A stretch of 64,000 bases of DNA from Streptomyces sp. NBC_01244 (GTDB lineage Bacteria; Actinomycetota; Actinomycetes; Streptomycetales; Streptomycetaceae): NCBI RefSeq assembly GCF_035987325.1, contig NZ_CP108488.1:5332001-5396000 (forward strand), in the 5' to 3' direction. Positions 36,909 through 60,285 of this stretch are shown in pieces (positions within the stretch are counted from its first letter, which is position 1; every line of letters starts with the position of its first letter). Under the pieces are notes generated by a model. That model made no database searches. It saw only the letters and a list, made by a program, of their open reading frames with translations, and had not been told where the DNA came from. The translations under genes were made by a program, and so were the position numbers.

Positions 36909-36914
36909 CTGTAG

Positions 36915-39459: not shown

Positions 39460-41196
39460 TTAGGGGCGGGCGCCCGGGTCGTGTTTGGTGAGGGAGGCCT
39501 TGACCGCGCGGGCGTACGGGCCTTCCCACCAGGGGATTGTTTCCACCAGGACCGGCTTGGTGCCGGAGGCCAGGACGAGGGCCCGGCCGGGGGGCATCGC
39601 GCCCAGGTCGGAGACCTTCAGGACGCGGTCGCGGCGTACGGACTCGTTCATGGTGCGGTTGCCGGACCAGCCGCCGGTCTCCGATTCGCGGGTCGTGGTG
39701 AACTCGCGCAGTTCGTACTCGCCCGCCAGCTCGGACAGGTCGCCCAGGAAGCGGGTGTCGGAGACGCCGCCTCCGTAGACCCGTACGTTCGCGGCGGACC
39801 AGAGCTTCTCCATGCCGCGCTCGCCCCACACCTCGATGCCCTGGGCCCAGGACTGGAGGATCGTCATCAGGATGATGCCGCGTGATCCGTAGTGGGAGTA
39901 GAGGTCGGGCAGGGCGCGCCAGCGGCAGACGTTCGCCGCCTCGTCCAGGACGCCGACCAGCGGGCGTGCCAGCCGGCCGCCGCGCTGGGTCGTGGCGTAC
40001 TCCTCGGCGGCCTCGACGACGGCCACGGTCAGGGCGGTCACCAGCGGGCCCGCCGAGTCGCTGCCCTCGCGGGAGAGCGAGTAGAGGGTGGAGTCGCTGC
40101 GGACGAACTCGCGGGGGTCGAACTCCGGGCGGTCGTCGGAGGCGGAGGCCGGTGTCACCCACCGGTTGACCTCGGGGTTGATGAGGCAGGACGCCATCTG
40201 CTGGGCGACGCCGTAGATGCCGCTGCGCTGCTTGTCGGGGGCGGTGATCACGCCGGCCAGGGCGTCGGCCGGCATGATCTGTCCCGCGCCGCGCAGGATG
40301 CGCTCGGGGGTGTCGTCCTTCGGGTTGGCCAGCCAGGTGTAGATCTGCGTGATCGAGGACTTGGCCGTGGCCGCCGCGAGCAGGAGGTTGGCCAGCAGGT
40401 CCTGTCCTGCCGGGTCGAAGAACGCGTCCGTGGAGGCGTCGGCGTCCCGCGAGCCCGACGCGAAGTGGTCGGCCAGCTTGCGGGCCTTGGCGACGTCGGT
40501 CACGTACGACAGCGGATTCCACCACCATGCGGGCGGTTCCTGGGCCACCTGCTGCGGGTCGAAGACCCACACCGGACCGCGCGCTTCGCGGGGGCCTCGG
40601 GTCGCGTCGACGATGTCCCGCTTGTTGGAGGTGACGAGCACCGCGCCGGGGGCGTCGAGGATCGCGGGGATGGCGCGCCGGGTCGTCTTGCCGGTGCGGG
40701 GGCCCCAGATGTCGATGTGCATGTCTTCGAAGGAGCCGAACAACGGCTGCCGTCCCCGCAGGGAGCGGCCGATGAAGACGCCGGGCACGCTGCTCTGCAC
40801 GCCGAGTCGCTCGGCGGTCGCGGCGGCGCCCTTCATGGTGAGCTTTCCGAGCTCCTCGCCCTGGGCGAGGTGGCGGGCCGCGCCGTCGACGTCGGGCTTG
40901 TTGCGCATGCGCTGGCGGATCCGGTACACGGCGACGCCGGCGCCGGCGAGCAGGAGCGCCTCGCCGGCCGCGACGGCGTTCGCCGCACCGCCCGGCCACG
41001 TGTAGTCGCCCTTGACCAAGGACACGGCGAAGGAGAAGGGGTTGCCCGGCGGGTCCGGTTCACCCTCGAAGGAGGCACCGGCGAGGGCGGCGAGCCACGC
41101 TCCGCAGAGGAGGATCAGGACCGAGCCGACGAGCGCGACGATCTCGATCGTCCAGTCCTCGTCGGAGCGCGGCTTCTTCGGCTGTTGGGCGGTCAT
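39460..41196 (-). CDS. VirD4/TraG-like type IV coupling ATPase
   Basis: The 578-residue protein is the predicted coupling protein that feeds substrate to the secretion channel. Two N-terminal membrane helices (about residues 20-40 and 70-90) precede a cytoplasmic P-loop domain: Walker A IDIWGPRTGKTTRRAIP, Walker B PLVGVLDEAANVC, and a TraG/TraD-type GRALVLASG near the end. The ATG at 41196 has GGAAGGAAAG upstream; earlier in-frame codons have no ribosome site. It is the last gene of the leftward arm, 168 bp after the cell-wall hydrolase gene. The T4SS genes to the right support the role, but no relaxase is visible to define the cargo. Confidence 0.9.
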   Translation of the reverse strand: MTAQQPKKPRSDEDWTIEIVALVGSVLILLCGAWLAALAGASFEGEPDPPGNPFSFAVSLVKGDYTWPGGAANAVAAGEALLLAGAGVAVYRIRQRMRNKPDVDGAARHLAQGEELGKLTMKGAAATAERLGVQSSVPGVFIGRSLRGRQPLFGSFEDMHIDIWGPRTGKTTRRAIPAILDAPGAVLVTSNKRDIVDATRGPREARGPVWVFDPQQVAQEPPAWWWNPLSYVTDVAKARKLADHFASGSRDADASTDAFFDPAGQDLLANLLLAAATAKSSITQIYTWLANPKDDTPERILRGAGQIMPADALAGVITAPDKQRSGIYGVAQQMASCLINPEVNRWVTPASASDDRPEFDPREFVRSDSTLYSLSREGSDSAGPLVTALTVAVVEAAEEYATTQRGGRLARPLVGVLDEAANVCRWRALPDLYSHYGSRGIILMTILQSWAQGIEVWGERGMEKLWSAANVRVYGGGVSDTRFLGDLSELAGEYELREFTTTRESETGGWSGNRTMNESVRRDRVLKVSDLGAMPPGRALVLASGTKPVLVETIPWWEGPYARAVKASLTKHDPGARP

Positions 41197-41364
41197 GGTC
41201 AGGTCTTTCCTTCCGCAGGGGCGGGCGCGGCACGGAAGACGACGAGGCCATTCCCGTCCCGGAGGATCCCGTATCCGTTGCTTGTGACTTCCGGGATGCC
41301 GTCGCACGGGGGAAGGGTGGCGCCGACGGCGCCGCCCTTCCCCTCCGGGCAGCGTGCTTCTCCT

Positions 41365-44778: not shown

Positions 44779-45245
44779 TCAGCGCTCGACGCCGACGGGC
44801 TTCGCCGCCGCCTCCGCGGCCACGGGATTGGTCACGCCGTGGCCGGAGGAGCCGTACGGGGTCGGCTGCACGGCAGCGGGACGGACGGCCACACCGGGCA
44901 GGAAGGCACTGGCCTGCGCAGGGCCGCGCTGCTTCGGTTCGGGGGCCGGTGCTTTCGGCTCGGCGTACTCGTTCGCCGACGACAGCCGGGAGAGCGCCGC
45001 ATTGTGTGCTTCCCGCAGGCCCTCGGGTACGTCGAGGTCGCCTAGCTTGGCGGCGAAGTCCTTCGGTGACGTCTTCCGCATGTCGAAGTCCTCCATCCGC
45101 ACTTGGCAGCGCACTGCGTCGTTCGCGATCAACTCGTGCCGGCCCGCGGGTGTGACCTCCAGTACCTGCAAGTCGCAAGGTCAGCCTCCTGGAGGGCGAT
45201 CGCGCGGTCGATTTCCTCCCGGGTCGGGGGCGCCGCCTCGCTCAT
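44779..45245 (-). pseudogene. accessory protein gene with an apparent single-base frameshift
   Basis: An ATG at 45245, preceded by AAGG and overlapping the upstream stop (ATGA), begins MSEAAPPTREEIDRAIALQE but runs into a stop at 45129. From about 45171 another frame continues as LQVLEVTPAGRHELIANDAV down to 44779, ending in a Pro/Ala-rich tail. Adding one base near 45175 joins them smoothly (EADLAT-LQVLEV) into a protein of about 155 residues. The downstream part alone has no good start. No family recognised; the role is tied to the T4SS by position only. It could be a mutation or a sequencing error. Confidence 0.5.
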
Positions 45246-45682
45246 CGACCTTGCCGCGTCCAGGTGGAGAACGCGACCGACTGGCTCAGGACGGTGAGCG
45301 GCTCGGCCGCTGAACCGCCGCCCATACCCCGCCAGTACGCGAACGGGTACGGGCGACGGCTCTTCAGTCGGGACTCCCGGTCCGGCCAGTAGCTCGCGAC
45401 TGTGGGCTCCGGAAAGTCCGCAGCGTCTCACGAACCGGTCCACGCCGGTGTGTTCAGCACTCCCACAGCGGCTGCCAGGTACGCGGGCCAGGTTTCGGCA
45501 CCCAGGTCGAGCACCTCACCGTTCTCCTCGGCGGCACGGCCGTACCGCTCGCACCACTCGCGGAACTCCGGGGACCCGCCCTGCGGAGTACCGGCCCACA
45601 CGGAGGCCCAGTCCACGTCGCGCAGGCCTTCCAGCTCCGCGGCCAGGTCCTGGGCACCGCGGCCCGATGTCTCCGTCAGCAT
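45242..45682 (-). pseudogene. third Trp-rich paralogue, interrupted by an in-frame TGA
   Basis: The frame starts at ATG 45682 (GGAG upstream) and encodes DLAAELEGLRDVDWASVWAG, matching the genes at 55791 and 56444. At 45428-45430 a TGA interrupts it, but the same frame continues with matching sequence (FPEPTVASYWPDRES, then RRPYPFAYW) to a stop at 45242 that overlaps the next ATG. Aligning GS*DAADFP with GAWDSPDFP and GAWDSGSFP puts the TGA exactly at a conserved Trp, so a single TGG-to-TGA change explains it. The middle region is also about 40 residues shorter than in the paralogues. Confidence 0.7.
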
Positions 45683-45730
45683 CCTCGTCAGCTCCTCGCT
45701 CGGTACACCTGCGGGCATCGTGGCAGAGGG

Positions 45731-46378: not shown

Positions 46379-46488
46379 AAGGGATGGCCCCGCGGTTTGC
46401 CACACTGCCGTGCGCACCTGGCATCACCAGGGGCCCGCCGGGCGGTCGACGGCGGAGGGGGATCGGACGCGTGGGAGAGACGGACTCG

Positions 46489-48153
46489 ATGACGGACCAC
46501 AACAGCTCTGCTGGCGGGGTCGGCGGGGGCCAGCCTTCCGGGCAGCAGCAGGGGCAGTTCGGCCCCGCAAGGCAGCAGGCACAGCAGCCGCAGCAGGCGC
46601 AGCAGTTTCCCCATCAGGGATCCCATCCTTACGGCCAGCCGGACAGCGCCGCCGCGCCGATGCAGCAGCCCTCGGACGCCGCGCGGGCGCAGTTGGCCGC
46701 GGCCTGGGTGCGCGCCGCACGGCCCGGGACCGTACCGACGGGCGAGGCCGCCGTACCGGTCCTGCCGCCGCGCGTGACCCCGCCCGCCGGTGACTCGAAG
46801 AAGGACAAGCGCAGGGCCGCCCAGGACGCGAAGCGGGCGGAGCGCAAGGCCGCGTACGAGCAGAAGAAGGCCGAGCGCGAGAACCGCAAGCAGGGGCGCG
46901 GCGGCAAGGGTTCCGCGCCCGGGCCCGCATCCGCGTCCGTGCCGGGTCCGTCGGCGGGCTCGCCGACTGTTGCCCAGCCCGGTACGGCCGCTGCGGCCGC
47001 GGGCGCCACGACGCCGCAGGCCCAGGCTCAGGCCCGGGTACGCGCCGGAGCCGGCGAGGGCTTCGACGTGCCGCGCCCGGGTGGGCGGCTGCCGGCCCAG
47101 GGCCGGCGCACCCATGTGGCCCTGCGCGCGACGCTCCTGATCACCACGTGCGCCTTCGCGCTGGGTTCCTGCGGTGTCGCGGGCCTGGTCGTCGGCAAGT
47201 CGTCCGTCGCGGTGCAGAGCGCCGCCCTGGACGACGAGGACGTGCAGCGGTACCGGCTGAGCGCGTTCCCGACGCAGGCCGCGGCGACCTTCGCCGAGGA
47301 GTACGTGACGCTGTGCATGACGTACTCCGCGCAGTCGGCCGACAAGCGCCGCGACGCACTGAGCCGCTACGCCTCGTCAGGTGTGGACCGTGACTGCGGC
47401 GTGAGCGGCCAGGGCAGCCAGACCGTGCGCCAGGCCAAATGGGACGGGACCGTCGAAGAGCTCCCCGAGTACGGGGAGAACGGGCGCTACCTGAGCATCC
47501 AGGTGAAGCTGTCCAGCGGTCGCACCACCACGCTCTCCGTGCCGGTGTACGTGAAGGACCTGGCCACCGGGTCGGGGCTGCGCGTCGCGGGCAACCTGGG
47601 CGAGATGCCGCTTCCTTCGCGCGGCAGCGTTCCCGTCGTCAAGCAGGACGACGAGGTCATCGACCAGCCGCTCTCCGACCAGCTCAAGTCGAAGGTCCTG
47701 CCCGGTTACTTCAAGGCCTGGGCCGCTTCCGACGCGACGGGCCTGACCCGGTTCACGACCACCGACGCCTCCCTTGCGGCGACCTCGGGCCTGGCCGGGG
47801 CGCTCGCCTCGCCCGACGTCCGGGAGGTCGTCGCGCTCGCGCCGGCAGGCAGTGAGAGCGGCAAGACCATCCAGTACGGGCCGGGTCAGGCGGTACAGGC
47901 CCGGGTGACGGTCGTCTGGGGCGCCGAGGGCTCCGGGTCGAAGGGGAGCCCCGGCCCGACCGTGCAGCGCTCGTACCGGCTGACCGTGGTGAACACCGCC
48001 CAGGGCTGGTTCATCAAGGACATCCGCGGCGGCGTGCTCGACCCGACGGGCGGCACCGCGGACGCCGGAGCCGGCGCGCCCGCCTCCCCGGCTCCCGAGG
48101 AGAGCGCCCCGGCATCCGGGGACGCCACCCCCAGTCCGGGCAAGACGCCCTGA
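46489..48153 (+). CDS. TcpC-like conjugation/T4SS scaffold protein
   Basis: The 554-residue protein has a Gln/Pro/Ala-rich cytoplasmic N-terminus (1-110), a charged Lys/Arg/Glu helix (about 105-145), a low-complexity stretch, and one membrane helix at about residue 215-235. The extracytoplasmic C-terminus looks like two NTF2/VirB8-type domains (FAEEYVTLCMTYS; LPGYFKAWAASDATGLTRF). This is the architecture of TcpC, an essential T4SS core protein in Gram-positive plasmids. The ATG has GGGAGAG upstream. First gene of the rightward operon. Confidence 0.75.
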   Translation: MTDHNSSAGGVGGGQPSGQQQGQFGPARQQAQQPQQAQQFPHQGSHPYGQPDSAAAPMQQPSDAARAQLAAAWVRAARPGTVPTGEAAVPVLPPRVTPPAGDSKKDKRRAAQDAKRAERKAAYEQKKAERENRKQGRGGKGSAPGPASASVPGPSAGSPTVAQPGTAAAAAGATTPQAQAQARVRAGAGEGFDVPRPGGRLPAQGRRTHVALRATLLITTCAFALGSCGVAGLVVGKSSVAVQSAALDDEDVQRYRLSAFPTQAAATFAEEYVTLCMTYSAQSADKRRDALSRYASSGVDRDCGVSGQGSQTVRQAKWDGTVEELPEYGENGRYLSIQVKLSSGRTTTLSVPVYVKDLATGSGLRVAGNLGEMPLPSRGSVPVVKQDDEVIDQPLSDQLKSKVLPGYFKAWAASDATGLTRFTTTDASLAATSGLAGALASPDVREVVALAPAGSESGKTIQYGPGQAVQARVTVVWGAEGSGSKGSPGPTVQRSYRLTVVNTAQGWFIKDIRGGVLDPTGGTADAGAGAPASPAPEESAPASGDATPSPGKTP

Positions 48154-48224: not shown

Positions 48225-48494
48225 ATGTACCTGGCGGCTACCACCCTCAACGGCATGTTCGGAGAGATCCAGAAGATCCTCCTGGGCATCGGCACCACGG
48301 TGGCCATCTGCTCCCTGCTCATCCTCGGCATCCGGATGCTGCTGTCGATGAAGCGCGGCGACGGCATGCGTGAGGCCTTCCAGGGCTTCGGCATGATCGC
48401 GCTGGCCGCCCTGATCATCGGTGGCGCGACCGGCCTTGCCGGTCTGCTCATCTCGCTGGGCGAGCAGATCGGCGGCGGCGGCGCCAAGAACTGA
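48225..48494 (+). CDS. VirB2-like two-helix membrane peptide
   Basis: The 89-residue protein has two hydrophobic helices (ILLGIGTTVAICSLLILGIRM and GFGMIALAALIIGGATGLAGLL) around a short basic loop. That is the size and topology of VirB2-like pilin or channel subunits. AAAGGA precedes the ATG. Its place between the TcpC-like and TcpE-like genes supports a T4SS role. Confidence 0.65.
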   Translation: MYLAATTLNGMFGEIQKILLGIGTTVAICSLLILGIRMLLSMKRGDGMREAFQGFGMIALAALIIGGATGLAGLLISLGEQIGGGGAKN

Positions 48495-48578: not shown

Positions 48579-49142
48579 ATGGCAGGGAACGCATCCGACG
48601 GACCCGAACCGATGGTCGCCTACGACCACACGGATCTGCTCAACCGGCCCAAGCGCATCTGGAACTGGGGAAACATCCCGCTTCCGGGCCTGCTGCTGCC
48701 GGCCCTGGGCGCGGCCTTCGGCTTCGCGGTCCTGTGGCTGGTGACGCTGCTCTCGCTCTCGGCCTTCCTGCCCTTCCTGGGCCTGTCGATGCTGTCGTCG
48801 GTGCTCTACATCGGGCCGCCCGTCGGCGTCTATTTCGTGTGGGGCCGGCCGCTGCCCTCCGCCCTCACCCTCAGCCAGCAACTGGTGGTCTGGGGCGACT
48901 ACTGGTTCCAGCCCAAGCGCCTGCAGGGGCTGGCCGCCGACCGCGAACCCGAGGAACTGCACTGGCAGGTGATCCTCTGGCAGCCGGGCTCGCAACGCTG
49001 GCACCGGCAGTACGAAGAGGCCCTTGTGACGGCGGCCCGGCACGGCTCCTCGTACGCCGCGCAGCCGGCCGAAGCGCAGCCCTACGCCGCGCACGCCGAA
49101 AACGCACACACCGCAACCGCACACTCCGAGACCGCAGGATGA
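48579..49142 (+). CDS. TcpE/PrgI-like T4SS membrane protein
   Basis: The 187-residue protein has two adjacent membrane helices (about residues 35-85) after a short N-terminus with WNWGNIPLPG. It continues with a soluble part typical of small T4SS proteins lying directly before the VirB4 ATPase gene (VirB3/TcpE/PrgI position). The C-terminus is an Ala/His/Glu low-complexity tail. It ends 7 bp before the ATPase gene. Confidence 0.65.
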   Translation: MAGNASDGPEPMVAYDHTDLLNRPKRIWNWGNIPLPGLLLPALGAAFGFAVLWLVTLLSLSAFLPFLGLSMLSSVLYIGPPVGVYFVWGRPLPSALTLSQQLVVWGDYWFQPKRLQGLAADREPEELHWQVILWQPGSQRWHRQYEEALVTAARHGSSYAAQPAEAQPYAAHAENAHTATAHSETAG

Positions 49143-49149
49143 CTCCTTC

Positions 49150-52137
49150 ATGATCATGATGATCCTTCTGGGCGGGGCGGTCGCCTTCTTCGTGATCGCC
49201 ATGGTCATTACCGCCGCAGGTTCCAAGAAGTCCCAGGGAAACAAGGGCTCCGGCGGCCAGGGCTCCGGCGGTACGCGGAACTCGGGCGCCTCCCGCAACC
49301 AGGCCAAGTCCACGCGCCGCGAGGAGATGCGGCTGCCCTACCGCTACGCCGACGACTTGATCTTCGTCCACGGCGAGTCGGTGTGGACCGGGATCGTGCT
49401 GCCCACCGCCATCGACGAATACCTCAACGCCACCGAGCTCCAGGCGATGGCCGAGGGTCCCGCCCGCGGGCTGCTCAACCTCGCCCGCGGCGACCGCAAC
49501 GTCGAGTGCCACTACCGCAAGGTGTACCGGCCGATCACCGCCCTCGAATGGGCCGACCAGCTCAACACCATCGCCTGGGACCCGACCGAGAACTACAAGG
49601 CGTACAACCTCCGCAAGGCGGAGTACCAGGAACGCATCGGGGCGACGCGCGAGCGCAACATCCTGCTGGTCAAGCTGGGATCGCTGGCACGCGGGTCGAA
49701 CGGCAGCGGCGTACTCCCCGGCGGCGACGACCCGTTCGAGGACCCGGGGCTGACGCGCGCCCTGCGCGGCACCGCCGACAAGGCGGCCGCGGGCGCCACC
49801 GGCGTCCACGACGAGTACCTGTCGCCGGGCGTCTTGGCCCAGTGGAGCCAGGTCGCACGCGAGGTGCACGAGAGCCTCGAGGGCCTGAACGGCGCGCCGC
49901 TGGACCGCGAGGAGCTGGTCTGGCTGATCCGCAAGCCGCTCCACGGCGACCTCCCGGTGCCGCCCGAGCCGGTGCTCGGATCCCGTTCCTGGGGCCCGGA
50001 CCAGTTCGACCTGGTCGTCGACTTCTCCGGCGAGAACCACAAGACGCACATCGTGCTCCACCAGTACGACGAGGTCACCGGCGAACAGCACACCAGCTAT
50101 ACGACGACGCTGGTGGCCGCCAGCTGGCCCACCGAGACCCGCTTCCGGCAGTCCACCGCCTGGGCGCGCTACGCCTCGCAGCACGTGGACTTCCCGGTCG
50201 AGATCGACATGCGGTTCACCCTGATCCCGTACCTGAAGTTCAAGGACCGGGCGAAGAAGATCAGCGGCAACCTCGTCGACGAGATGAACGACATGGCCAA
50301 CTCGGGCCGGTCGCCCGGCACCCAGCTGGCCAACCAGGTCACCCGCGCCCAGCACCTCCTCGACGACGTCGAGGAGCACAAGATGCCGGGCATGGAGGCG
50401 CAGATCCGCTTCACCATCTCCGCGCCGGACATCGCCGAACTGGAACGCAGGCGCCGCATCCTGGAGATGCAGTTCAAGCAGGACCTGAAGGTCACCCTGC
50501 TGCGGCCCACCCGCCAGCAGTGGAGGCTGCTCCAGTCCCAGCTGCCGGGCGACGCCCCCAAGCTGCCCGTCGCGCCGTACCTGCGGCTGCAGGAGGTCGA
50601 GCAGCTCGGCGCCGGGCTGCCCACCGCGGGCACCGAGCTCGGAGACAACCCCGAACACCGGTCGGGCAAGCAGCTCGGCTGGGTGGGCAACCTCGTCGGC
50701 TGGGCCGGGAAGATGCCCGTCCACTACTCCCTGCACGTCGGGCCGGCCCGCAATGACGGCGGTGGCCTCGCCATCGTCGGCGCGTCCGGCGGTGGCAAGT
50801 CCTCGCTCGCGCTCCAGAAGTTCTACGAGGAGTCGGAGTCGGGCGTGCGCTGCCTGGTCATCGACCCGAAGACCGACTTCGCCCAGCTCTGCTACTACCT
50901 GGGCTTCGGCTCCCAGGTGAACGACCCGGAGTTCGCGCACGACGCGGATTCGGGCATCCTCGGTACCGAGCGGAGCCGCTTCCAGCCGGTCAACCCGGAG
51001 TTCTGGGCGGAGACCGAGGTGGTCGACCTCCTCAAGGGCCAGGCCGGCGTGCTCGACCCGTGGGTGGTCGCACGCGACGTGCCCTCGGGCCGGCTGCTCG
51101 CCGAGTCGATGCTGCGCGGATTCCTCGGCGACGAGGACTACCAGCGCGTGCGCCTGCCCGTCATCGAGGGGATGGCCACGGTCGTCGGCCGGTACAACTC
51201 CGCGATGCGGCAGGCCACCGAGCACGGGCTGACCGCCCGGGAGACCGAGCAGAAGGTGCCGCGGCCGACGCTGTGGCAGGTCGTCGACGAGGTCGTGCAG
51301 GCGTACGACCACGCGGTCTCCTCGGGCGACCGCGAGGCGATCAAGGAACTCAAGCTCGCCCAGATGCTCCTCACCGAGCTCAGGACCCTGCCGTACGCGC
51401 GACTCGCCTTCGCCGAACACCCGCAGACGCTGTCCGCGATGCGAAAGCGCCGGACGGTCATCACCCTGCGCGGTTTCCAGTCCCCGTCCTCCTCGGACCC
51501 GCGCAACTGGAACCCGGCCGAACGCCTCGCCGCCACGGCGCTGATGGCGGTCGTGGAACTGGGCAGCCAGATGCTCGACGTCGGCTACGAGAAGAACCCG
51601 GTGACGGGCGAGATCGGCCTGCGGCCCAAGGCCCTCTTCGTCGACGAGGCGTACGTCGTCACCGCCACCGAGAGCGGCCGCGACCTGATGCGGCGCGCGC
51701 TCAAGCAGGGCCGCTCGTACCTCGCGGTCACCGTCCTGATCACCCAGCAGGCCATCGACCTCGTCCAGATCGAGGACTCCGAGGCCCGCAGCGGTGGTGC
51801 CAACCAGATCCACACGGTCTTCGCCTTCAAGCAGAAGTCCGCACAGGAAGCCTCCCTGGTGGCCCCGCTGCTCGGCCGCCCCGAGGACGACGCCAAGGTC
51901 GTCTCGGCCCTGCAGGAGCTCCGTACGGGTGTCTGCCTGCAGCGCGACGTGGACAAGCGGGTCGGCACGGTGGCCGTGGACCTGGTCTTCAAGGAGATCC
52001 TCGCCGCCACTGACACCAACGGCACGACCCGCCCCGGCAGGCAGTCGATCGACCCGCCGCTCAGCGTCTGGGACTGGACCTTCATGCAGGAGGCGACCGC
52101 GGCGGCGGAGGCCGCGGCAGCGGCCTCCGCGTCGTGA
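49150..52137 (+). CDS. VirB4-like T4SS ATPase
   Basis: The 995-residue motor ATPase has an N-terminal hydrophobic helix, then a long VirB4/TraC-type N-domain. The C-terminal P-loop domain has Walker A IVGASGGGKSSLALQ (about residue 545), CLVIDPKTDFAQL, Walker B KALFVDEAYVVTA (about residue 830), and the motif LAVTVLITQQAIDL. The N-terminal helix is unusual compared with classical soluble VirB4 and may replace a separate VirB3. Close spacing to both neighbours indicates one operon. It is the most securely identified T4SS gene here with the VirD4-like one. Confidence 0.92.
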   Translation: MIMMILLGGAVAFFVIAMVITAAGSKKSQGNKGSGGQGSGGTRNSGASRNQAKSTRREEMRLPYRYADDLIFVHGESVWTGIVLPTAIDEYLNATELQAMAEGPARGLLNLARGDRNVECHYRKVYRPITALEWADQLNTIAWDPTENYKAYNLRKAEYQERIGATRERNILLVKLGSLARGSNGSGVLPGGDDPFEDPGLTRALRGTADKAAAGATGVHDEYLSPGVLAQWSQVAREVHESLEGLNGAPLDREELVWLIRKPLHGDLPVPPEPVLGSRSWGPDQFDLVVDFSGENHKTHIVLHQYDEVTGEQHTSYTTTLVAASWPTETRFRQSTAWARYASQHVDFPVEIDMRFTLIPYLKFKDRAKKISGNLVDEMNDMANSGRSPGTQLANQVTRAQHLLDDVEEHKMPGMEAQIRFTISAPDIAELERRRRILEMQFKQDLKVTLLRPTRQQWRLLQSQLPGDAPKLPVAPYLRLQEVEQLGAGLPTAGTELGDNPEHRSGKQLGWVGNLVGWAGKMPVHYSLHVGPARNDGGGLAIVGASGGGKSSLALQKFYEESESGVRCLVIDPKTDFAQLCYYLGFGSQVNDPEFAHDADSGILGTERSRFQPVNPEFWAETEVVDLLKGQAGVLDPWVVARDVPSGRLLAESMLRGFLGDEDYQRVRLPVIEGMATVVGRYNSAMRQATEHGLTARETEQKVPRPTLWQVVDEVVQAYDHAVSSGDREAIKELKLAQMLLTELRTLPYARLAFAEHPQTLSAMRKRRTVITLRGFQSPSSSDPRNWNPAERLAATALMAVVELGSQMLDVGYEKNPVTGEIGLRPKALFVDEAYVVTATESGRDLMRRALKQGRSYLAVTVLITQQAIDLVQIEDSEARSGGANQIHTVFAFKQKSAQEASLVAPLLGRPEDDAKVVSALQELRTGVCLQRDVDKRVGTVAVDLVFKEILAATDTNGTTRPGRQSIDPPLSVWDWTFMQEATAAAEAAAAASAS

Positions 52138-52187
52138 TGTCGGCTCGTACCGATTCCTCGTTCGAACGCCGTACCAAAGGAGACACC

Positions 52188-52796
52188 ATGCGCCTGTCCA
52201 GGACCCTCACGGCTACGGCAACGGCCGTACTCGTGCTGACGGCCCTGACCGGCTGCGGGGGCGACGCCGACGAGGCCGGGGAGGATTTCGGCGGTGGCAC
52301 CGGGATCAGCGGCGGCGCTCCGAAGGCCGACGGCGCTCCGAAGGCCGACGGCGCTCCGAAGGACGGTGGCGACCTGCCGTCGGCCGGCGACATGGCGTCC
52401 ATCGAGAAGTTCATCAACCAGCACGCCCAGTGCAACAACCTCCAGCCCTTCGACGACGAGAGGTCGGGCCTCTTCGACAAGGAGGCCAAGGATCCTGCCT
52501 TCGGCATCAAGGAGCGCGCGATCTGCCACGACGGAACCCACAACGTGATCACGCTGCTGGCGATCTCCGACATGGCGAAGTTCCAGGCCGCGAACCGCGC
52601 CGGGGAGAAGCACGAAGTAATCGTCGGAAAGGACTTCGCAGTCGTGCCGGAGGGTGACAACACCGTCACCGCACTGATGGCCGCCAAGATGCTGCTCCTG
52701 ACCTGTGACCCGAACGACTACCAGATCCCCAGTGGTTACAAGCAGCTCAAGGGTCTGGCCGAGGGCTGCGTCATGACGGACTACGCCCGCTCGTAG
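52188..52796 (+). CDS. T4SS-linked lipoprotein 1
   Basis: The 202-residue exported lipoprotein has MRLSRTLTATATAVLVLTAL followed by TGC (Cys22). After the signal comes three times APKADG/APKDG (a DNA repeat of 18 bp), then a domain with three further cysteines and the pattern MASIEKFINQHAQC ... GCVMTDYARS. It is paralogous to the next gene. Position suggests an outer-face component or an immunity/exclusion factor; neither is shown. AAAGGAGA precedes the ATG. Confidence 0.75.
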   Translation: MRLSRTLTATATAVLVLTALTGCGGDADEAGEDFGGGTGISGGAPKADGAPKADGAPKDGGDLPSAGDMASIEKFINQHAQCNNLQPFDDERSGLFDKEAKDPAFGIKERAICHDGTHNVITLLAISDMAKFQAANRAGEKHEVIVGKDFAVVPEGDNTVTALMAAKMLLLTCDPNDYQIPSGYKQLKGLAEGCVMTDYARS

Positions 52797-52844: not shown

Positions 52845-53399
52845 ATGCGCCTCTTCAAGACCCTCACCGTCACCACTACCGCCCTCCTCGCGCTGACGGC
52901 CCTGACCGCCTGCGGCGGGGACAGCGACGAGGTTGCCACGGGATCCGGCGGCAAGAGCCTGCCGAAGGCGAACGACGTCGCCTCGATGGAGCGCTTCGTC
53001 AACCAATACGCCGTGTGCAAGGACCTGGAGACCGAGGCGACGGCCGGCGGGTCCGCCCGCGAGGCCTTTGCGGACCTGCCCGAGGGATCCAAGGGCGGTG
53101 TGAAGGAACGGGCGTTCTGCGAGGCCGAGAAGGGCGATCCGATCGTCCTGATGGCCGTCTCCGACATGAAGAAGTTCGTGGCGGGGCTCAAGGCGAAGAA
53201 GGCAGAAGGGAAGGAGGGGATGGCCTTGGTCGGGGCGGACTTCGCTGTGGTACCCAGCGAGGCCGAGACCTCGACCGCGCTGAAGTCCGCGGGCCTCCTC
53301 ATCGCGTCGTGCGATGCCGACTTCAACAGCAAGATCCCGAGCGGGTACATCAAGCGTGAGGGCACCGTCGAGGGCTGCATCCTGACGGACTACTTGTAG
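52845..53399 (+). CDS. T4SS-linked lipoprotein 2
   Basis: The 184-residue paralogue of the preceding gene has signal MRLFKTLTVTTTALLALTAL then TAC (Cys23), and the shared pattern VASMERFVNQYAVC, VKERAFCEAEKGDP, IPSGYIKREGTVEGCILTDY. The tandem pair arose by duplication and has diverged strongly while keeping the cysteines. GAAGGA precedes the ATG. Confidence 0.75.
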   Translation: MRLFKTLTVTTTALLALTALTACGGDSDEVATGSGGKSLPKANDVASMERFVNQYAVCKDLETEATAGGSAREAFADLPEGSKGGVKERAFCEAEKGDPIVLMAVSDMKKFVAGLKAKKAEGKEGMALVGADFAVVPSEAETSTALKSAGLLIASCDADFNSKIPSGYIKREGTVEGCILTDYL

Positions 53400-53448: not shown

Positions 53449-55779
53449 ATGTCCGTGCGCCGTAGCGCCAAGTCACGTGGAGAGCTCTCCGCCCGCCCGA
53501 CGCCCCGCAAACGGGTGAAGGCGGCTGGGCGTGTGGTGCGGGCCGGCGTGTTCATGATGTTCGCCCTGCTCGCTCTGACCATGGCCGTGCCCAACTCGGC
53601 ACGCGCCATCGATTTCGCCTGCGAGTTCACGGGTGACGACAGCTATCAGATGGACAACCCCGATTTCGTCGAATCGGTCATACCAGCCGTAAAGCAGTGG
53701 GATACGGCACGAGCCAAGAGCCTCGACGACACGACGGGGCTGTTCGGCGGAGCCGTCGACATGCCGCAGGCCGCTCAGAACTACACGATGTACGAGCTCA
53801 ACGGCATGCGCGGCTTGAACTGGTCCATGACCATGCGGGGCCGGGGAGACGCCTCCCAGACCGATGCAAGGATCAACGGCGCCGGCGCCGACGATTGCTC
53901 CGTCATGGACTTCGTCAACAACGGCATTGCCGACATGGTGTTCAACGGCACCAAGCTGCTGACCCGCACGGCCATCTCCATCAAGGAGTACGCTTCCAAC
54001 CCCAGCCCGCTCGGCGGTCTGTACAAAGGGCGCGACAATGCCGTGGAGAAGCTGAAGAACAACCTCTTCATACCCGCTGTCCCCGTCATGATCTCGCTCA
54101 CCGGAATCTGGGTGTTCGGCAAGTGGCGCAAGAACGAGATGCGAGAGGCTTGGTCGGGCGTCGGCTGGGCAGCGCTGACCACTGTCGCAGTCGTGGTCAT
54201 GCTCACCGGTGGCAACTACAACAAGGTCATCAACGAGGCGGACGCCGGTATCGCCCAGGCCAATTCCCTCCTGAGTGAGGCGGTCCTCGGTGGTCTCGCC
54301 GGGAGGATGGAGCCCCCCTGCGACCTGCCCGACAACGTGCCCAACCGGGGTATGCGCGTCAACAGCTGCGCCATGTACGACACGCTCGCATTCCGTCCTT
54401 GGGCCCTGGGGCAGTTCGGCGAGAGCGGCAACAACTGCATCTTCCGGAAGAAGGAAGGCAGGCTCGAGGGCGGCGTGTGCGTCCCCAAGAGCACCGCGAC
54501 CGATTGTTACTGGGGCAAGGGAGCGCGGTGCGAAGACCTCCGCGTACGCCAGTTGGCGGCTCAGTCCCGGACCAACAAGGAGATCGGCAAGAGTCTCGAC
54601 AAGTACAAGGACGAGTGGTACCCGATCCGCTTCGACATTGCGGGCGGTAAGGGCAGTAACAACGAGCACGCGGACCAGCACATCTATCCGGTCGCCTTCG
54701 ACGACTGGGCGGGTCGGAGCGCTGGGAGCCGGGTCGGGCTCGCCTTCTACTCGCTTCTTGCCTCGCTGATCGTCGGCGTGATGGTGATCGTGCTCAGTGC
54801 GCTCACGCTGTTGTGGCACGCCGTGACCCTGATCATGATCATCATGCTGCCGCTGATCGCCACGCTGGGCATCCATCCGTCCCAGCAGAAGCTGCTCAAG
54901 GGCTGGCTGGAGACCTTCATCCACAGCTTCGTGCTGCGCGCAGGTTTCGGTGTCGTCCTCACCGTGCTGCTGGTGCTGTACCAGATGATCCTGCCTTCCA
55001 GGATCTGGCTCGGTATGCAGTTGCTGATGCTCCTGCTGGTCACGATCGCCGTCGTGATGATGCTGAAGAAGCTGCTCGCAGGCAGTTACAGCCCGAAGAT
55101 CGCGGGTGCGGAAGACGCGCTCGGCGTCGGCGACATGGCGAACACGCTGACCAGCAAGCTGGGCGCGCAGGGCGGCCGCGTCGCCGCCGGTGCCGCCTCA
55201 GGTGTCGCCTCCGGGACGGCGAGGACGGCGAAGTTCGCGGGCCGGGTGGCCGGCCGGGGCGCCGGCAACGTCGGCCGGGGCATGGACAACGCCGTACTCA
55301 AGGGACGACTGCAGAAGGGTGGCTGGGTCGCCCCGAGCAACACCAAGCGGAAGCAGCGCAAGTCCGCGCAGATGGGGGCGGAGATCCAGCAGAACCAGTA
55401 CGACGAGATGGTGAAGTCGAGGGGCGAGGCCCCGGCGGCCGAGCCGTCCCCCGACCAGGGATCCGAGCAGCCCCGTCGCCGCAGTGGACGGGTCAGCGGG
55501 TCCACGCAGCCGGCGCCGCAGCAGGGAGCCCCTTCGGCACCCGCCCCCGCCGCGCCGTCCGCACCCGGGCCCGCACCGCAGGCCCCCGCTCCCGCCCCCG
55601 GGCCCGCGCCGCTGCCGGCCCCGCGCTCCGGTGGCCGGGTCAGCGGTGACGACGCGGCCCCGCCGCGGCAGCAGCCCGCGCGGACTTCGGACCCGCGCAT
55701 GCCGCAGTCGCCGACCCCGCCGACCCCGCCCCATCAGCCGCCGCCGCCCCGCAACGGCGACGGCCGGATGCCCCGCTAG
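53449..55779 (+). CDS. VirB6/TrbL-like polytopic channel protein
   Basis: The 776-residue protein has an N-terminal signal or first helix (AGVFMMFALLALTMAVP, site ARA|ID), an extracytoplasmic region, and about six more helices. These include WVFG-adjacent residues 205-225, a long hydrophobic block near 425-475, and helices near 490-545. A hydrophilic C-terminal tail of about 220 residues is rich in Pro and Ala. The layout is that of VirB6/TrbL inner-membrane channel subunits with an extended tail that may recruit partners. GAAGGA lies before the ATG. Confidence 0.75.
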   Translation: MSVRRSAKSRGELSARPTPRKRVKAAGRVVRAGVFMMFALLALTMAVPNSARAIDFACEFTGDDSYQMDNPDFVESVIPAVKQWDTARAKSLDDTTGLFGGAVDMPQAAQNYTMYELNGMRGLNWSMTMRGRGDASQTDARINGAGADDCSVMDFVNNGIADMVFNGTKLLTRTAISIKEYASNPSPLGGLYKGRDNAVEKLKNNLFIPAVPVMISLTGIWVFGKWRKNEMREAWSGVGWAALTTVAVVVMLTGGNYNKVINEADAGIAQANSLLSEAVLGGLAGRMEPPCDLPDNVPNRGMRVNSCAMYDTLAFRPWALGQFGESGNNCIFRKKEGRLEGGVCVPKSTATDCYWGKGARCEDLRVRQLAAQSRTNKEIGKSLDKYKDEWYPIRFDIAGGKGSNNEHADQHIYPVAFDDWAGRSAGSRVGLAFYSLLASLIVGVMVIVLSALTLLWHAVTLIMIIMLPLIATLGIHPSQQKLLKGWLETFIHSFVLRAGFGVVLTVLLVLYQMILPSRIWLGMQLLMLLLVTIAVVMMLKKLLAGSYSPKIAGAEDALGVGDMANTLTSKLGAQGGRVAAGAASGVASGTARTAKFAGRVAGRGAGNVGRGMDNAVLKGRLQKGGWVAPSNTKRKQRKSAQMGAEIQQNQYDEMVKSRGEAPAAEPSPDQGSEQPRRRSGRVSGSTQPAPQQGAPSAPAPAAPSAPGPAPQAPAPAPGPAPLPAPRSGGRVSGDDAAPPRQQPARTSDPRMPQSPTPPTPPHQPPPPRNGDGRMPR

Positions 55780-55790
55780 GAGGGCCGGCC

Positions 55791-56414
55791 GTGGCAAGCC
55801 TGATCACCGACCACCCGCCGCGGGAGCTCGCCGCCGAACTGGGCGCGCTCCTGCGGGTGGACTGGCGCACCGTATGGGACGGGATCCCGGCGGGCGAGGC
55901 CGAGCGCCGGGAGTGGTGTGCGGCCTTCGGGTGGCAGCCGCTCTGGGCCGAGTCGGGGCTCTGGGTCCGTACGCGGCGGGGCGGTCGCCTGCACCTGGCC
56001 GCCTCGGCCGCCCCCGGGCGGCCCGTGACGCGCGCCTCGTACACGGTCTGGAAGGCCCGGGAGGACGCGGAGTCCGGGGACACCGGGCTCGTGGCGGTCG
56101 CTCTCGAGCGTTACGAGGCCCACCTCGCCCGGATGACCACCCTGTTGGGTCCCCCCGGCTGGCAGGGCGCCTGGGACAGCCCCGACTTCCCGCCGCCGCC
56201 CGCTCCCGGCCGCTGGGGCGACGCCGTGGACCGGCTGGAGCACCAGGCCCCGTACCGGCTCGCCCAGTGGAGTTATGCCAACCCGCTGGCACCGGTGTTC
56301 GTGCTCGACCTGGACTGCCGGTCGGGCCGGGGTGCGGGCAGTGGGACGATCTCTCTCAGTTGCCATGGGCCGGCCGACCCCGAAGCGGTGGCCGGCCCCG
56401 GCTGGCTGCTGTGA
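55791..56414 (+). CDS. Trp-rich paralogue family protein 1
   Basis: The 207-residue soluble protein has no signal. The family pattern is ELxxLLRVDWRTVWDGIP, REWCAAFGWQ, GAWDSPDFP, and a Tyr-rich APYRLAQWSYA region near the end. It shares this with the next gene and with the broken gene at 45242. No known domain recognised. The ATG (GTGGCAAGC context; GGAGGGC upstream) follows the channel gene by 11 bp, so it is in the T4SS operon. Confidence 0.7.
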   Translation: MASLITDHPPRELAAELGALLRVDWRTVWDGIPAGEAERREWCAAFGWQPLWAESGLWVRTRRGGRLHLAASAAPGRPVTRASYTVWKAREDAESGDTGLVAVALERYEAHLARMTTLLGPPGWQGAWDSPDFPPPPAPGRWGDAVDRLEHQAPYRLAQWSYANPLAPVFVLDLDCRSGRGAGSGTISLSCHGPADPEAVAGPGWLL

Positions 56415-56443: not shown

Positions 56444-57070
56444 ATGGGCACGACCTTCGAACCGCCGGTGAACCGGACCCCGCAGGAGCTGGTCACCGAG
56501 CTGCGCGGGCTGTCCGGCGTGCACTGGGAGACCGTGTGGAACGGCCCGCCCCTCGCCGGGCAGGGCCTGGACATGTGGTGCGCGCAGTTCGGGTGGACGC
56601 CGACCCAGTTCGAGTACGTGCTCAACGTGGTGACGGACACGGGTGGCGAGCTGACGCTTCACGCGCAGGGCGGGAGCTGGGCGCCCGTGCAGAACCTTTC
56701 CCACTGGGTGTGGGGCGCCTCGGCGGACAGCCCGGAAGGCAACCCGCAGGTGCTTGCCGAGGCCGATCGGGCGTGGCCGGCCTACCGCGGCGCCGTGTCC
56801 TCGGTACTGGGCGAGCCGGCCTGGGAAGGCGCCTGGGATTCCGGTTCCTTCCCTGATGAGCTCGATGACTATGTCGTCCCGAAGCCGGAGACCCGGTTCC
56901 GGGAGAAGCGTCCCTATCGGATCGCGTACTGGGAGCTTGCGGCTCCGGGCGGAGCCCTCGCCAGCCTGACCATTACTCCTGCCATGGGTACCGCCGACGG
57001 GTCCGACGACGGGGCCGTCAACATGGCCCTCCGGGTCTATCCCCGTCCCCTGAAGGCCGGACGACGGTGA
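56444..57070 (+). CDS. Trp-rich paralogue family protein 2
   Basis: The 208-residue relative of the preceding gene has ELVTELRGLSGVHWETVWNG, MWCAQFGWTP, GAWDSGSFPDEL and RPYRIAYWELAAPGG. A GTG at 56411 overlapping the previous stop would add 11 residues and is possible; the ATG at 56444 gives an N-terminus matching the paralogue. The stop overlaps the next start (GTGA), so this protein is translationally coupled to the ADP-ribosyl-cyclase-like one and may be its partner. Confidence 0.7.
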   Translation: MGTTFEPPVNRTPQELVTELRGLSGVHWETVWNGPPLAGQGLDMWCAQFGWTPTQFEYVLNVVTDTGGELTLHAQGGSWAPVQNLSHWVWGASADSPEGNPQVLAEADRAWPAYRGAVSSVLGEPAWEGAWDSGSFPDELDDYVVPKPETRFREKRPYRIAYWELAAPGGALASLTITPAMGTADGSDDGAVNMALRVYPRPLKAGRR

Positions 57071-58098
57071 GCCCGGAACCGATACCGAAGTACATCGAAC
57101 AGGGAGCCCTGCGCCGGGCGAACGCCCGGTACCAGGCGACCCTGGAGGCGAGGCGTGACCCGGAGTCCGTGGTGGAGCGCATCAAAGCCGCCGCCCAGGC
57201 GAAGCAGATGAAGCCGAAGGCTTACATCGACAGCCTGGTCAAGGACAAGGAGAAGCTGGTCGCGCCCGAGGGCACGCACCCGATCAGTGCCTTCTGGTCG
57301 TTCGGCATCGAGCACCCGGAGGCGCCGCCGAACAACAAGGGCGTTCACTTCCTGGACCAGCGCTTCATCGCGGAGGAGTGGGCGGCCCAGCGGAACAAGG
57401 CCAATCCCGGAGTCGCGCAGACGCTGGAGACCACCGAGGGCGGTCGTGAACTCGACGACATGTTCCTCTGGGAAGACGCAGTCATCGGGGCGCTCGGTGG
57501 TGCGCAGAAGGGCTTCAAGCCGGGGTACGCCAGAGAGTGCTGGGGCCAGATCTCCACGTCCTACGCCGAGGTCGCCGAGGGGCGGGCCGTCGTCTTCGGG
57601 CAGACCGCCCACACGCTGTCGATCCTCCACCAGGAGGAACTGCGCACCCTCTGCGCCAATGAGAAGGTCGGGCTGGACAACATCCACTTCGCCTACGAGG
57701 CACCTCGGGACTGGCCGGCGGAGACCCGCGCCGAGGCCGGTACCGACGCGGTACGCGCTGCCGCGCAGTTCAACGACCCGACCCTCCCTCGGTACATCGA
57801 CCCGAAGGCGTTCGGGGCCGACGCCCCCGAGGCCCGCAAGGCGAAGATCGACAAGGTGCTGACCGCAGCCACGCCGGCGCAGGAGGCCCCGGTCGTCGCG
57901 GCGCCGGTGGGTCAGGCCCCGCCCAAGAGCGTCCGTACTCCGCTCTGGCAGGTGGGGTTCAAGTCCACGCCCACCGCCGCCCGGCCCGCATCCCGCGGTC
58001 CGGCCGCCGGGACCGGGACCGGCGCCGGTACGGGCCCCGGGGTCGTTCCCGATCTCGCACCCCGCCCCCTCACCACAGGAATGGACGGCATGGCATGA
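57067..58098 (+). CDS. ADP-ribosyl cyclase (CD38)-like protein
   Basis: The 343-residue protein has no signal or membrane helix. Residues about 72-210 carry the landmarks of the ADP-ribosyl cyclase/CD38 fold in order: FWS (Trp77, like CD38 Trp125), TLETT (Glu121, like Glu146), CWGQIS then SYAEVAEGRAVVF (Trp159 and Ser163, like Trp189 and Ser193), and a Ser-x5-Glu (Ser185 to Glu191, the catalytic Glu226 spacing). These enzymes break or cyclise NAD. The assignment is by eye and not yet supported by a structure or profile search. Residues 1-70 are helical; 280-343 are a Gly/Pro-rich tail. The GTG overlaps the previous stop. Confidence 0.5.
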   Translation: MSPEPIPKYIEQGALRRANARYQATLEARRDPESVVERIKAAAQAKQMKPKAYIDSLVKDKEKLVAPEGTHPISAFWSFGIEHPEAPPNNKGVHFLDQRFIAEEWAAQRNKANPGVAQTLETTEGGRELDDMFLWEDAVIGALGGAQKGFKPGYARECWGQISTSYAEVAEGRAVVFGQTAHTLSILHQEELRTLCANEKVGLDNIHFAYEAPRDWPAETRAEAGTDAVRAAAQFNDPTLPRYIDPKAFGADAPEARKAKIDKVLTAATPAQEAPVVAAPVGQAPPKSVRTPLWQVGFKSTPTAARPASRGPAAGTGTGAGTGPGVVPDLAPRPLTTGMDGMA

Positions 58099-58727
58099 CC
58101 TCTCGTCCCTCGCGAGCCGGCAGCGCCGCCCGTGGCTCCCTCCGTCGTTTCCTGGGCCAGGAGAAGAGCGACGACTGGGCCGTGCGCCTGCTCCCGCGCG
58201 TCGTCCTCGGGCTGGCCGCCGGTTACACCCTCTTCGTGCTCGCCTCGGCCGGCATGTCCTCCTTCCTCACGGTGTGCGCGGTGCTCGCCCTGGTCGCGAC
58301 CGGGTGGCTGCTGCGCCGCCGCGGGCAGTTGCTGCTGGCGCTCGTCTCGACGGTCATCACCGCGGCGGTCACCGGCTACTTCGCGGCCGTGGGCGACATC
58401 GCGCGGGGCCAGGCGAGCGGACTGCTGAGCGGGCAGGCCGTGTTCGGGTACTGGGCGCTCGCCGGGATGGCGCTGCTCGGGGCCTGGATGGCCAAGGACC
58501 ACCCCGGTCGCCGCGGGGTCACCGTCGTTGCCGCCGACCTGGTTCTCCTCGTGACGTCCGGGGTGGGAACGGTCTTTCCGGCGGTCTCCGTTCCGCTCGG
58601 GTTCCTCGGCCTGGTCCTGGTGCTGATGGCGCGTGGGGGCGGAATCGCGTCGGTCCGTGGCTGGTTCGCACGGGTGAAGGGCTTCGGGTCGCGACGCACC
58701 GCATCGACTGGGGACACGGACGGTTAG
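58095..58727 (+). CDS. polytopic membrane protein of the T4SS operon
   Basis: The 210-residue protein has six or so hydrophobic helices (starting LLPRVVLGLAAGYTLFVLAS) after a basic N-terminus, and a basic C-terminal tail. Its ATG overlaps the stop of the ADP-ribosyl-cyclase-like gene (ATGA), so the two are coupled; it might anchor or transport in concert with it. No family recognised. Confidence 0.65.
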   Translation: MTSRPSRAGSAARGSLRRFLGQEKSDDWAVRLLPRVVLGLAAGYTLFVLASAGMSSFLTVCAVLALVATGWLLRRRGQLLLALVSTVITAAVTGYFAAVGDIARGQASGLLSGQAVFGYWALAGMALLGAWMAKDHPGRRGVTVVAADLVLLVTSGVGTVFPAVSVPLGFLGLVLVLMARGGGIASVRGWFARVKGFGSRRTASTGDTDG

Positions 58728-58854: not shown

Positions 58855-60285
58855 ATGGTCACGACAGCAGCGAAAATGCCGGCAATACCCACGCAGAGGT
58901 CCGCTTCGGTCGCGCCTCTGCCCTGCCAGCGGCGGCCGGACATCTTCGGTCAGCCCCTGCTCAGGAACCCGCCCGAGGGCGTGAGCGGGGTCCCGGTCCA
59001 GGCGCGCAGGCGCCAGGCCCTCGCCCACGCGGCGCGCCAGCTCTGCTCCTCCTGCCCCCTCTGGGCGGAATGCCTGCGTGACTCCGTCGCCCAGTCGGAT
59101 CCCGGCGGCTACGCGGCGGCGACGACCCGGCAGGACCGGAGGTGGATCCGCCGCCAGATCGGAATCGGTGATGCGCAGGGGCGGCTCGATTCCCGGCCGT
59201 ACCCTGGGGACCGACTCGTGGAAGTCGATGTCGTACTCGACGCGTTCGACGCGCTCCAGGAGCACCGAGCGAGCCGGCCCGCCCTTTCGAGGGCAGGCGC
59301 GGTCACGGGCAAGGGCTCGGGGGACGGCCCCCGAAGTGACAAGGCACACCGCGTCGCGGCAAGTGGACAGCCGCACGTCGTTCAGCAGCACCTCAACACA
59401 CGCGAGGCATCGATGGCGGCCCCGGCAGGCGAACGGATCACCTTCTCGCTCGATGATCCGGTCCAGGGCATACAGAAGGCACTTCTGGGTCCGCTGGTGC
59501 ACTCCACGCTGCCGACCCTGGAAGCCACCGGGCACATCGCCGCGCTCCTGGTCCGCACGCCCTCCTCCGGTCTCGCGCCCGAGCTCCTCGAGGGCTTCCG
59601 GCGAACGCGCCGGTCCATGGAGGCGTGGCGCGCGGCGTCCGGGGACGAGGCCACGCAGCGCCCGGCGGTCAGCGGACTCACCGGCTCGGTGAGCGTCGAG
59701 CTCGCGACCACGGACCCGCTCTCCGCGCTGCGCCAGGACGTCTTCGAACCGCTACTGCACCTGCTTGCAGAATCGATTCGGCGGATGGAGGCGCTCACGG
59801 CGGTGCTGATAGCCGCCCCGGACGACACCACCCCGTCCTTCGACGTCCCGGGCATCAGCGCCCCGCACGGGCGGGAATTGGCGGACCTGCACGCGGCGCT
59901 GTGCGAACTCGGCTCCCACATCGAGGAGTACGCCGCCCTCGCGCCGCGGAACCGGAGCCACTCCGCCGCCCACGACACCGCGCAGCACGAGACGCACCTG
60001 CGGTCCGTACCGGCCGCCGCTTCCGGAAAGGCGCACCCGCCCGCCGCGTGGACCACGCCGAGTCTGCGGCGGGCCGTCGAGGAGGTGGTGACCTCCTTCC
60101 CGGGTCCCTTCACCGGCCGGGACGTCCTGCTGGCGCTGCCCCCGGGCGCGTACCAGGATCCGGCGAAGTCGGTCAGCAACGTGCTGTGCGCCATGGCCAA
60201 GTCCGGTCGTCTGCTCCGCATGTCCCGCGGCACCTACGCCGTGTCCTCCGCCCTGCCCACCGGCGTCCTCGCCGCCAGTTCCTGA
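58855..60285 (+). CDS. atypical WhiB-like regulator with long C-terminal extension
   Basis: The 476-residue protein begins with a WhiB-type iron-sulfur domain: Cys24, then Cys64-x2-Cys67-x5-Cys73 in LCSSCPLWAECLRDS, followed by GGYAAATTRQDRRWIRR where classical Wbl proteins have G-x-W-G-G. The last 70 residues look like a winged helix (RRAVEEVVTSFPGPFTGRDV ... LLRMSRGTYAV). A weakly biased linker (about 140-185) and an internal ATG at 59413 with GAGG upstream suggest that two genes may have fused or that the second half is also made alone. Wbl proteins are usually about 80-130 residues. It follows the T4SS operon and is a candidate for its regulator. Confidence 0.8.
   Translation: MVTTAAKMPAIPTQRSASVAPLPCQRRPDIFGQPLLRNPPEGVSGVPVQARRRQALAHAARQLCSSCPLWAECLRDSVAQSDPGGYAAATTRQDRRWIRRQIGIGDAQGRLDSRPYPGDRLVEVDVVLDAFDALQEHRASRPALSRAGAVTGKGSGDGPRSDKAHRVAASGQPHVVQQHLNTREASMAAPAGERITFSLDDPVQGIQKALLGPLVHSTLPTLEATGHIAALLVRTPSSGLAPELLEGFRRTRRSMEAWRAASGDEATQRPAVSGLTGSVSVELATTDPLSALRQDVFEPLLHLLAESIRRMEALTAVLIAAPDDTTPSFDVPGISAPHGRELADLHAALCELGSHIEEYAALAPRNRSHSAAHDTAQHETHLRSVPAAASGKAHPPAAWTTPSLRRAVEEVVTSFPGPFTGRDVLLALPPGAYQDPAKSVSNVLCAMAKSGRLLRMSRGTYAVSSALPTGVLAASS

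Follow-up and report, generated by a model that had tools for sequence, protein, structure and literature searches.

The closest described relatives of the system considered here are enzymes of the ADP-ribosyl cyclase (ARC) fold. CD38 and Aplysia cyclase have this fold and belong to the Pfam family Rib_hydrolayse (PF02267); they are animal enzymes with no secretion-operon context. In bacteria, Tox-ARC domains were predicted in 2012, in work whose table gives them immunity proteins of the Imm74 or Imm63 class (PMC3482391), and were shown in 2025 to be toxins that deplete NAD(P)+ (PMC12356396, PMC12605009). ARCtox, the C-terminal domain of Pantoea ananatis PANA_2924 (PDB 9ro8), is described as fused to a PAAR domain for a type VI system and as having its own immunity protein (PMC12605009). 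Tac1 of Streptococcus parasanguinis (PDB 9ouf) is described as an LXG-type toxin that leaves by a type VIIb system and is paired with an immunity protein of the Imm74 family, and Nac1 as having a predicted signal peptide and an alanine at the second catalytic glutamate (PMC12356396). Polymorphic Tox-ARC proteins carry the ARC domain at the C terminus, after an N-terminal delivery domain. The gene studied here is set differently. It lies in a 64,000-nucleotide stretch of Streptomyces sp. NBC_01244 (contig NZ_CP108488.1, positions 5,332,001 to 5,396,000; the window), within the operon of a type IV secretion system (T4SS), and encodes a non-fused ARC protein of 343 amino acids in which neither a delivery domain nor any other further domain was found. 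Where Nac1 has alanine, this protein has a glutamate (Glu121), and the solved domain of ARCtox, about 135 residues, is without its N-terminal helices and tail.

On the secretion side, antibacterial T4SS effectors of Xanthomonas and Stenotrophomonas reportedly combine a T4SS-linked toxin, an adjacent gene and a C-terminal signal region, a layout like that of the ARC cluster. These effectors belong to Gram-negative systems, unlike the ARC cluster, and their signal domain is of another kind than the ARC tail; we know of no ARC domain among them. The antibacterial T4SS effectors of Stenotrophomonas are described in PMC8262851. Conjugation in Streptomyces is reported to use TraB, which needs no other known T4SS subunit (PMC12857230). 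To the question of what chromosomal T4SSs do in this genus the ARC cluster brings a candidate cargo with a predictable, easily assayed activity. Full-text searches of the open-licence literature for type IV secretion and toxins, together with either ARC or Streptomyces, brought up no report of a T4SS-linked, non-fused ARC family, and a term search of the main texts of PMC12356396 and PMC12605009 found no T4SS-linked ARC. An earlier note on the window had known of no streptomycete system of this kind. Within these searches that stands for the T4SS-linked form, but not for the kind of enzyme, which is not new because bacterial ARC toxins are in print (PMC12605009, PMC12356396, PMC3482391), one of them a Streptomyces protein. 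The latter, WP_388533272 of Streptomyces mirabilis, appears in a figure legend of PMC12605009 and is a possible member of the present family.

We lean towards reading the window protein, a predicted NAD(P)+ hydrolase of the ARC fold, as an effector of the T4SS whose operon encodes it. The gene and its key positions are as follows, with conservation counted over 95 aligned proteins, the window's included.

57067-58098, + strand: ARC (CD38-fold) enzyme gene, 343 aa, GTG start; the model gives a core of about residues 1-268 and, from about residue 266, a basic tail of low confidence
57295-57297, + strand: Trp77 codon; first tryptophan in the ARC set, equated with CD38 Trp125 by the earlier note; kept in 94, the remaining one having a gap
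57427-57429, + strand: Glu121 codon; CD38 Glu146 and Tac1 Glu516 position, reported to favour hydrolysis over release of cyclic ADP-ribose (cADPR) (PMC12356396); kept in 92
57541-57543, + strand: Trp159 codon; ARCtox Trp323 position by profile alignment and spacing to the Glu; kept in 95
57553-57555, + strand: Ser163 codon; kept in 95
57637-57639, + strand: Glu191 codon, predicted catalytic Glu; counterpart of CD38 Glu226, Tac1 Glu573 and ARCtox Glu356; kept in 94
57862-58095, + strand: C-terminal low-confidence basic tail, pI 10.8, with PLWQxGF motif; candidate export or partner-binding signal

The earlier note had picked out a series of CD38-like motifs, and all lie in the translation where it placed them: FWS at residues 76-78, TLETT with Glu121, Trp159 and Ser163, Ser185, and Glu191. 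Trp77, Glu121, Trp159, Ser163 and Glu191 do not vary in an alignment of the window protein with 53 relatives (54 sequences) and hardly vary in the set of 95, whose most distant members are 21% identical; a chance motif is ruled out by this conservation. Only the Ser-x5-Glu element came out weaker than the note implied. Its Glu191 holds, whereas the Ser185 position is Ser in 41 and Ala in 13 of the 54 proteins and Ser in 78 of the 95. The 95-protein set contains the window protein, omits the L014 copy and may include near-duplicates between loci and protein ids. The note had staked its proposal on such conservation and on a CD38-like fold; the fold, too, was found, so that neither of its two refuting conditions came true. 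The predicted structure of the window protein has the two-lobed ARC fold, and a fold search matches it to CD38 and Aplysia cyclase over 156-185 aligned residues, beginning in the N-terminal helices (rmsd 4.1-5.8).

Single-sequence searches with the window protein found no match in Pfam, NCBIfam, PADLOC or PDB sequences, so membership of a named family on that basis was rejected. Family profiles did reach solved structures. Profiles A1 and A3 reach both solved bacterial toxins, ARCtox and Tac1, and the most diverse profile, A5, reaches ARCtox (7.5e-5), Tac1 (0.0077), Aplysia cyclase (0.064) and CD38 (0.1). The Glu, Trp, Ser and Glu of Aplysia cyclase align in register with the family, and Ile186 of the window protein aligns with an Ile of ARCtox. 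A1 was built from 56 database matches of the window protein (those with names being Streptomyces hypothetical proteins), minus P0003, identical to the window protein, and the partial P0052 and P0058; A3 has 13 chosen members; A4 came from 30 new ids minus the partial P0149; and A5 has 24 chosen members. Rows L015 and L017 were trimmed of N-terminal extensions from earlier starts. The A3 search gave 82 matches, 28 of which, at 24-32% identity, form a second class (class II). Searched against Pfam up to E 1, none of 24 members matched a curated ARC-type family; weak matches to DUF6890, ChaB, ESR1_C, HpHbR and NikA-like families, in 1-3 of the 24 each, were taken as chance. On its profiles and model, the window protein almost certainly belongs to the ARC/CD38 family.

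The protein very probably consumes NAD(P)+, and it is probably in the main a hydrolase. Hydrolysis of NAD(P)+ to ADP-ribose is predicted because all four Trp/Glu positions are present and Ile186 matches the ARCtox Ile. ARCtox is reported to lose its toxicity in E. coli when any one of these four residues is changed to alanine, and is said not to make cADPR (PMC12605009). For Tac1, Glu573 (the counterpart of Glu191) is reported as essential, and loss of Glu516 (the counterpart of Glu121) lets cADPR escape (PMC12356396). The exceptions at the Glu121 position among the 95 proteins are a Ser in L031:13643-14848 and L039:9713-10969 and a Gln in P0145. By analogy with Tac1 and Nac1, these three relatives are predicted to release more cyclic ADP-ribose, and the family offers natural variants at the residue that separates hydrolase from cyclase.

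The second strand of evidence is the T4SS itself. Genes for VirB4-type, TcpC-type and VirD4-type proteins were matched around the ARC gene, which bears out the operon assignment of the earlier note. Its claim of coupling by overlapping codons is likewise borne out: four-base overlaps join the ARC frame to the upstream stop (GTGA, 57067-57070) and the downstream start (ATGA, 58095-58098). The remaining genes of the cluster, the partner pair excepted, are listed here.

39460-41307, - strand: VirD4/TraG-type coupling protein (T4SS-DNA_transf, 6.9e-23)
41365-43428, - strand: cell-wall hydrolase with SLT, M23 and NlpC/P60 domains; putative VirB1-like role
44779-45706, - strand: decayed second cassette, with a broken partner (45260-45706), class II ARC fragments (44959-45245, ORF 44779-45171) and the catalytic middle missing
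46384-48153, + strand: TcpC-type conjugation protein (TcpC, 3.8e-23)
48225-48494, + strand: small membrane protein, 89 aa, two hydrophobic segments
48579-49142, + strand: conserved operon protein, one hydrophobic segment
49150-52137, + strand: VirB4-type ATPase (AAA_10, 2.5e-28)
52134-52796, + strand: small operon protein, conserved; read from a later start near 52188, its N terminus looks lipoprotein-like by eye
52845-53399, + strand: paralogue of the 52134-52796 product
53449-55779, + strand: polytopic membrane protein, putative TrbL/VirB6-like role; CD3337/EF1877 mobilome membrane protein match, below cut-off
58095-58727, + strand: membrane protein, five hydrophobic segments; ATGA overlap with the ARC gene
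58855-60285, + strand: protein with a WhiB domain (Whib, 24.9 bits against a cut-off of 23.6), towards the end of the conserved cluster

The link extends beyond the window. A VirB4 or VirD4 homologue lies near the ARC gene in 13 of the 14 loci examined, some in a second actinobacterial family; the count omits L001 (which repeats part of the L013 contig stretch) and L033 (an RHS toxin). The recurrent order is VirB4, small proteins, TrbL-like protein, two partners, ARC, a membrane protein (uncalled in L002 and L003) and WhiB protein. Across related loci VirB4 is 85-94% identical while ARC falls to about 30-66% (best local alignments), so the enzyme changes far faster than the ATPase. We are confident, short of certainty, that the ARC gene is functionally tied to the T4SS.

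The gene directly upstream of ARC in the recurrent order belongs to a partner family with two members in the window.

55791-56414, + strand: partner paralogue, 207 aa, pI 5.7; 32% identical in alignment to the 56444-57070 product
56444-57070, + strand: partner gene, 208 aa, acidic pI 4.7; 4-base overlap with the ARC gene; candidate immunity protein or chaperone

By tblastn with the ARC and partner families over the 14 loci, a partner-family gene stands directly upstream on the same strand of 17 of 17 intact ARC genes. In 16 of the 17 a start codon of the ARC frame overlaps the partner stop (4 bases in 13 cases, 8 in the other 3), and L002 has a 5-base gap. Each class I ARC gene on the TrbL side (n=10) has two partner genes; seven ARC genes have a single one (the class II genes of L013 and L016 and four of a second genus, that of carrier G471). 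A simple ORF-calling script missed some genes at the loci, such as the partner at 56444-57070 and the L014 ARC gene; the tblastn pairing count is independent of it. The partner is likely an immunity protein or chaperone. No Imm family occurred among the matches of 45 partner members up to E 1. The partner family is weakly similar to DUF6301, which no paper that we found in the open-licence literature names, but identity with it was rejected (14.6 bits against a cut-off of 27.2; 2 of 45 members match, best E 0.0026), and matches to Colicin_M (10 of 45, best 0.071) and DUF3606 (1 of 45, 0.03) were taken as chance.

The ARC protein itself shows no transmembrane segment by hydropathy scan and no hydrophobic N-terminal segment. 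Its tail after about residue 268 is mostly of low confidence in the model and basic (pI 10.8). A short motif recurs in it, PLWQxGF in class I and FLPGV in class II. Over the 93 proteins of at least 290 aa, a combined pattern, chosen after both motifs had been seen, occurs in 84 tails; with the residues of each tail shuffled, 0.9 would be expected. The nine tails that lack it are those of P0025, P0129, P0130, P0150, L016 and all four proteins of the second genus, and three of these four have GRGD at their end. A natural guess from these sequences is that the conserved tail is a C-terminal export signal.

The T4SS may move protein rather than DNA. In the window genome, 73 kb separate the cluster from the nearest PF03432 relaxase and about 733 kb separate it from the nearest PF00589 integrase; the single TrwC is encoded on a different contig. 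A search of ten carriers (G494 and G506 stand outside it) found PF03432 in 3 of the 9 further genomes, about 886 kb away in G107 and on other contigs in G042 and G167. TrwC occurs in 3 of 10, each time on a contig other than the cluster's, and MobA_MobL in 0 of 10. Half of the carriers (G108, G086, G449, G471 and G511) had none of PF03432, TrwC and MobA_MobL, the relaxase families searched for. As for cargo of an integrative conjugative element, no relaxase or integrase was found within such an element (PF03432, TrwC, MobA_MobL and PF00589, the families searched for). The absence or distance of relaxases favours protein translocation.

Among the roles that the earlier note had suggested (effector, anti-phage factor, signalling enzyme), effector fits best, and export as an effector is rather likely. 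Trp77 and Trp159 would hold the bound NAD+ in the cleft that separates the two lobes. Glu191 would drive cleavage of the nicotinamide-ribose bond, and Glu121 would favour full hydrolysis to ADP-ribose over release of cyclic ADP-ribose. The acidic upstream partner may keep the enzyme inactive before export, as an immunity protein or chaperone, and the VirD4-type coupling protein may read the conserved basic tail as a signal. The target would presumably be another cell.

The pairing with the partner is also what an intracellular NADase module of the toxin-antitoxin or abortive-infection type would show. The partner would then be an antitoxin or sensor, NAD would be drained in the enzyme's own cell on phage infection or element loss, and the T4SS would be a defective conjugative carrier. 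Partner-first order at every intact gene, overlapping frames and the lack of a detected delivery domain agree with such a module. Against it, the close VirB4 frames are open and strongly conserved, with no sign of decay, and the ARC-partner pair sits beside diverged T4SSs in two families and on both flanks of one cluster (L013). A PADLOC scan of the ARC protein alone also gave no family, although the 2023 models would miss a new system; one class II member has no match in 50,697 phage records, and the window protein has none in 72,556 plasmid records. We regard this explanation as unlikely, yet as the most serious competitor of an exported effector.

A signalling enzyme, with cyclic ADP-ribose or a related product as messenger, is improbable. 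Nac1, of Actinophytocola, for which such a role is proposed, is reported to yield about equal amounts of cADPR and ADP-ribose with its Ala at the second Glu (PMC12356396), and the three members with Gln or Ser at that position would suit it. However, the window protein and 91 others keep the glutamate whose counterpart's loss releases cADPR in Tac1, and Nac-type genes are described as being without apparent immunity genes (PMC12356396), whereas a partner is a fixed companion here. Most improbable is an accessory role on the donor side, in DNA transfer or in the T4SS itself, with the ARC fold being structural or regulatory. In its favour, the ARC gene of most class I loci holds a fixed place in the operon, with the TrbL-like protein encoded on one side and a further membrane protein on the other; the retention of active-site residues in a protein that changes so fast compared with VirB4, and the five carriers, of ten searched, without the three relaxase families speak against.

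An ARC gene is present in 7 of 199 Streptomyces genomes, and a close VirB4 (E 1e-100 or better) in 6, all within those seven. A slot with interchangeable toxins was rejected because, among the candidates scored, every genome with the close VirB4 (6 of 6) had an ARC gene too. In the seventh carrier, G042, ARC and partner adjoin a VirD4 80% identical to the window's, and the same 20 kb holds an ORF 30% identical to the window VirB4 over 209 residues. A survey of the class matched 5 of 296 genomes: three Streptomyces (the window's included), G471 of the other family, and G231, with an RHS-repeat protein. In the genus of G471, 4 of 40 genomes match, all four with a partner gene. Three of these loci adjoin a VirD4 homologue (58-61% identity), and TrbL- and transglycosylase-like matches lie just under cut-off near one. 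In the two surveys of the 199 Streptomyces genomes there were about 24-59 and about 9-23 first-look candidates per listed genome, of which 10 and 4 were scored, so that weak or distant copies may be missed.

Some strains hold several copies. L013 has three intact ARC genes, two of them at the site of the window's decayed cassette; BK239 (L003) has two in tandem, and L034 a fragment. P0019, P0124, P0127, P0133 and P0134 share the strain name NPDC091371 and probably lie on one contig. A wider picture, which we offer tentatively, is that of a relaxase-less, protein-translocating actinobacterial T4SS. Its dedicated cargo would be a fast-diversifying set of CD38-like enzymes that hydrolyse NAD(P)+, each made together with an immunity protein or chaperone of its own. 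Some strains would carry several (one has three in a single cluster, another perhaps five). The system would serve as a contact-dependent weapon or in inter-hyphal control in filamentous Gram-positives, with some members that lack the second Glu releasing cyclic ADP-ribose.

Several smaller observations concern these loci. The fourth locus of the second genus, L040, has neither a VirB4 nor a VirD4 homologue within the 20 kb examined; beside its ARC-partner pair, L040:12551-19089 holds ORFs of 289, 788 and 1063 aa with no Pfam match (E 0.01), possibly belonging to another transfer system. The G231 protein (L033:1242-9881) is a 2879-aa RHS-repeat protein with an ARC-like C terminus at about residues 2784-2871, the polymorphic-toxin form. 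Just before the T4SS region of the window stands a tRNA-Thr (CGT) gene (36835-36909, + strand), a possible old insertion site; integration there was rejected, as 36600-61000 holds no matching direct repeat (minimum length 18, seed 14). The lipoprotein-like paralogue pair at 52134-52796 and 52845-53399, between the VirB4 and TrbL-like genes, is called in differing numbers among loci. The 58855-60285 product has its WhiB domain near the N terminus, followed by a long C-terminal part, and is conserved at the end of the T4SS cluster.
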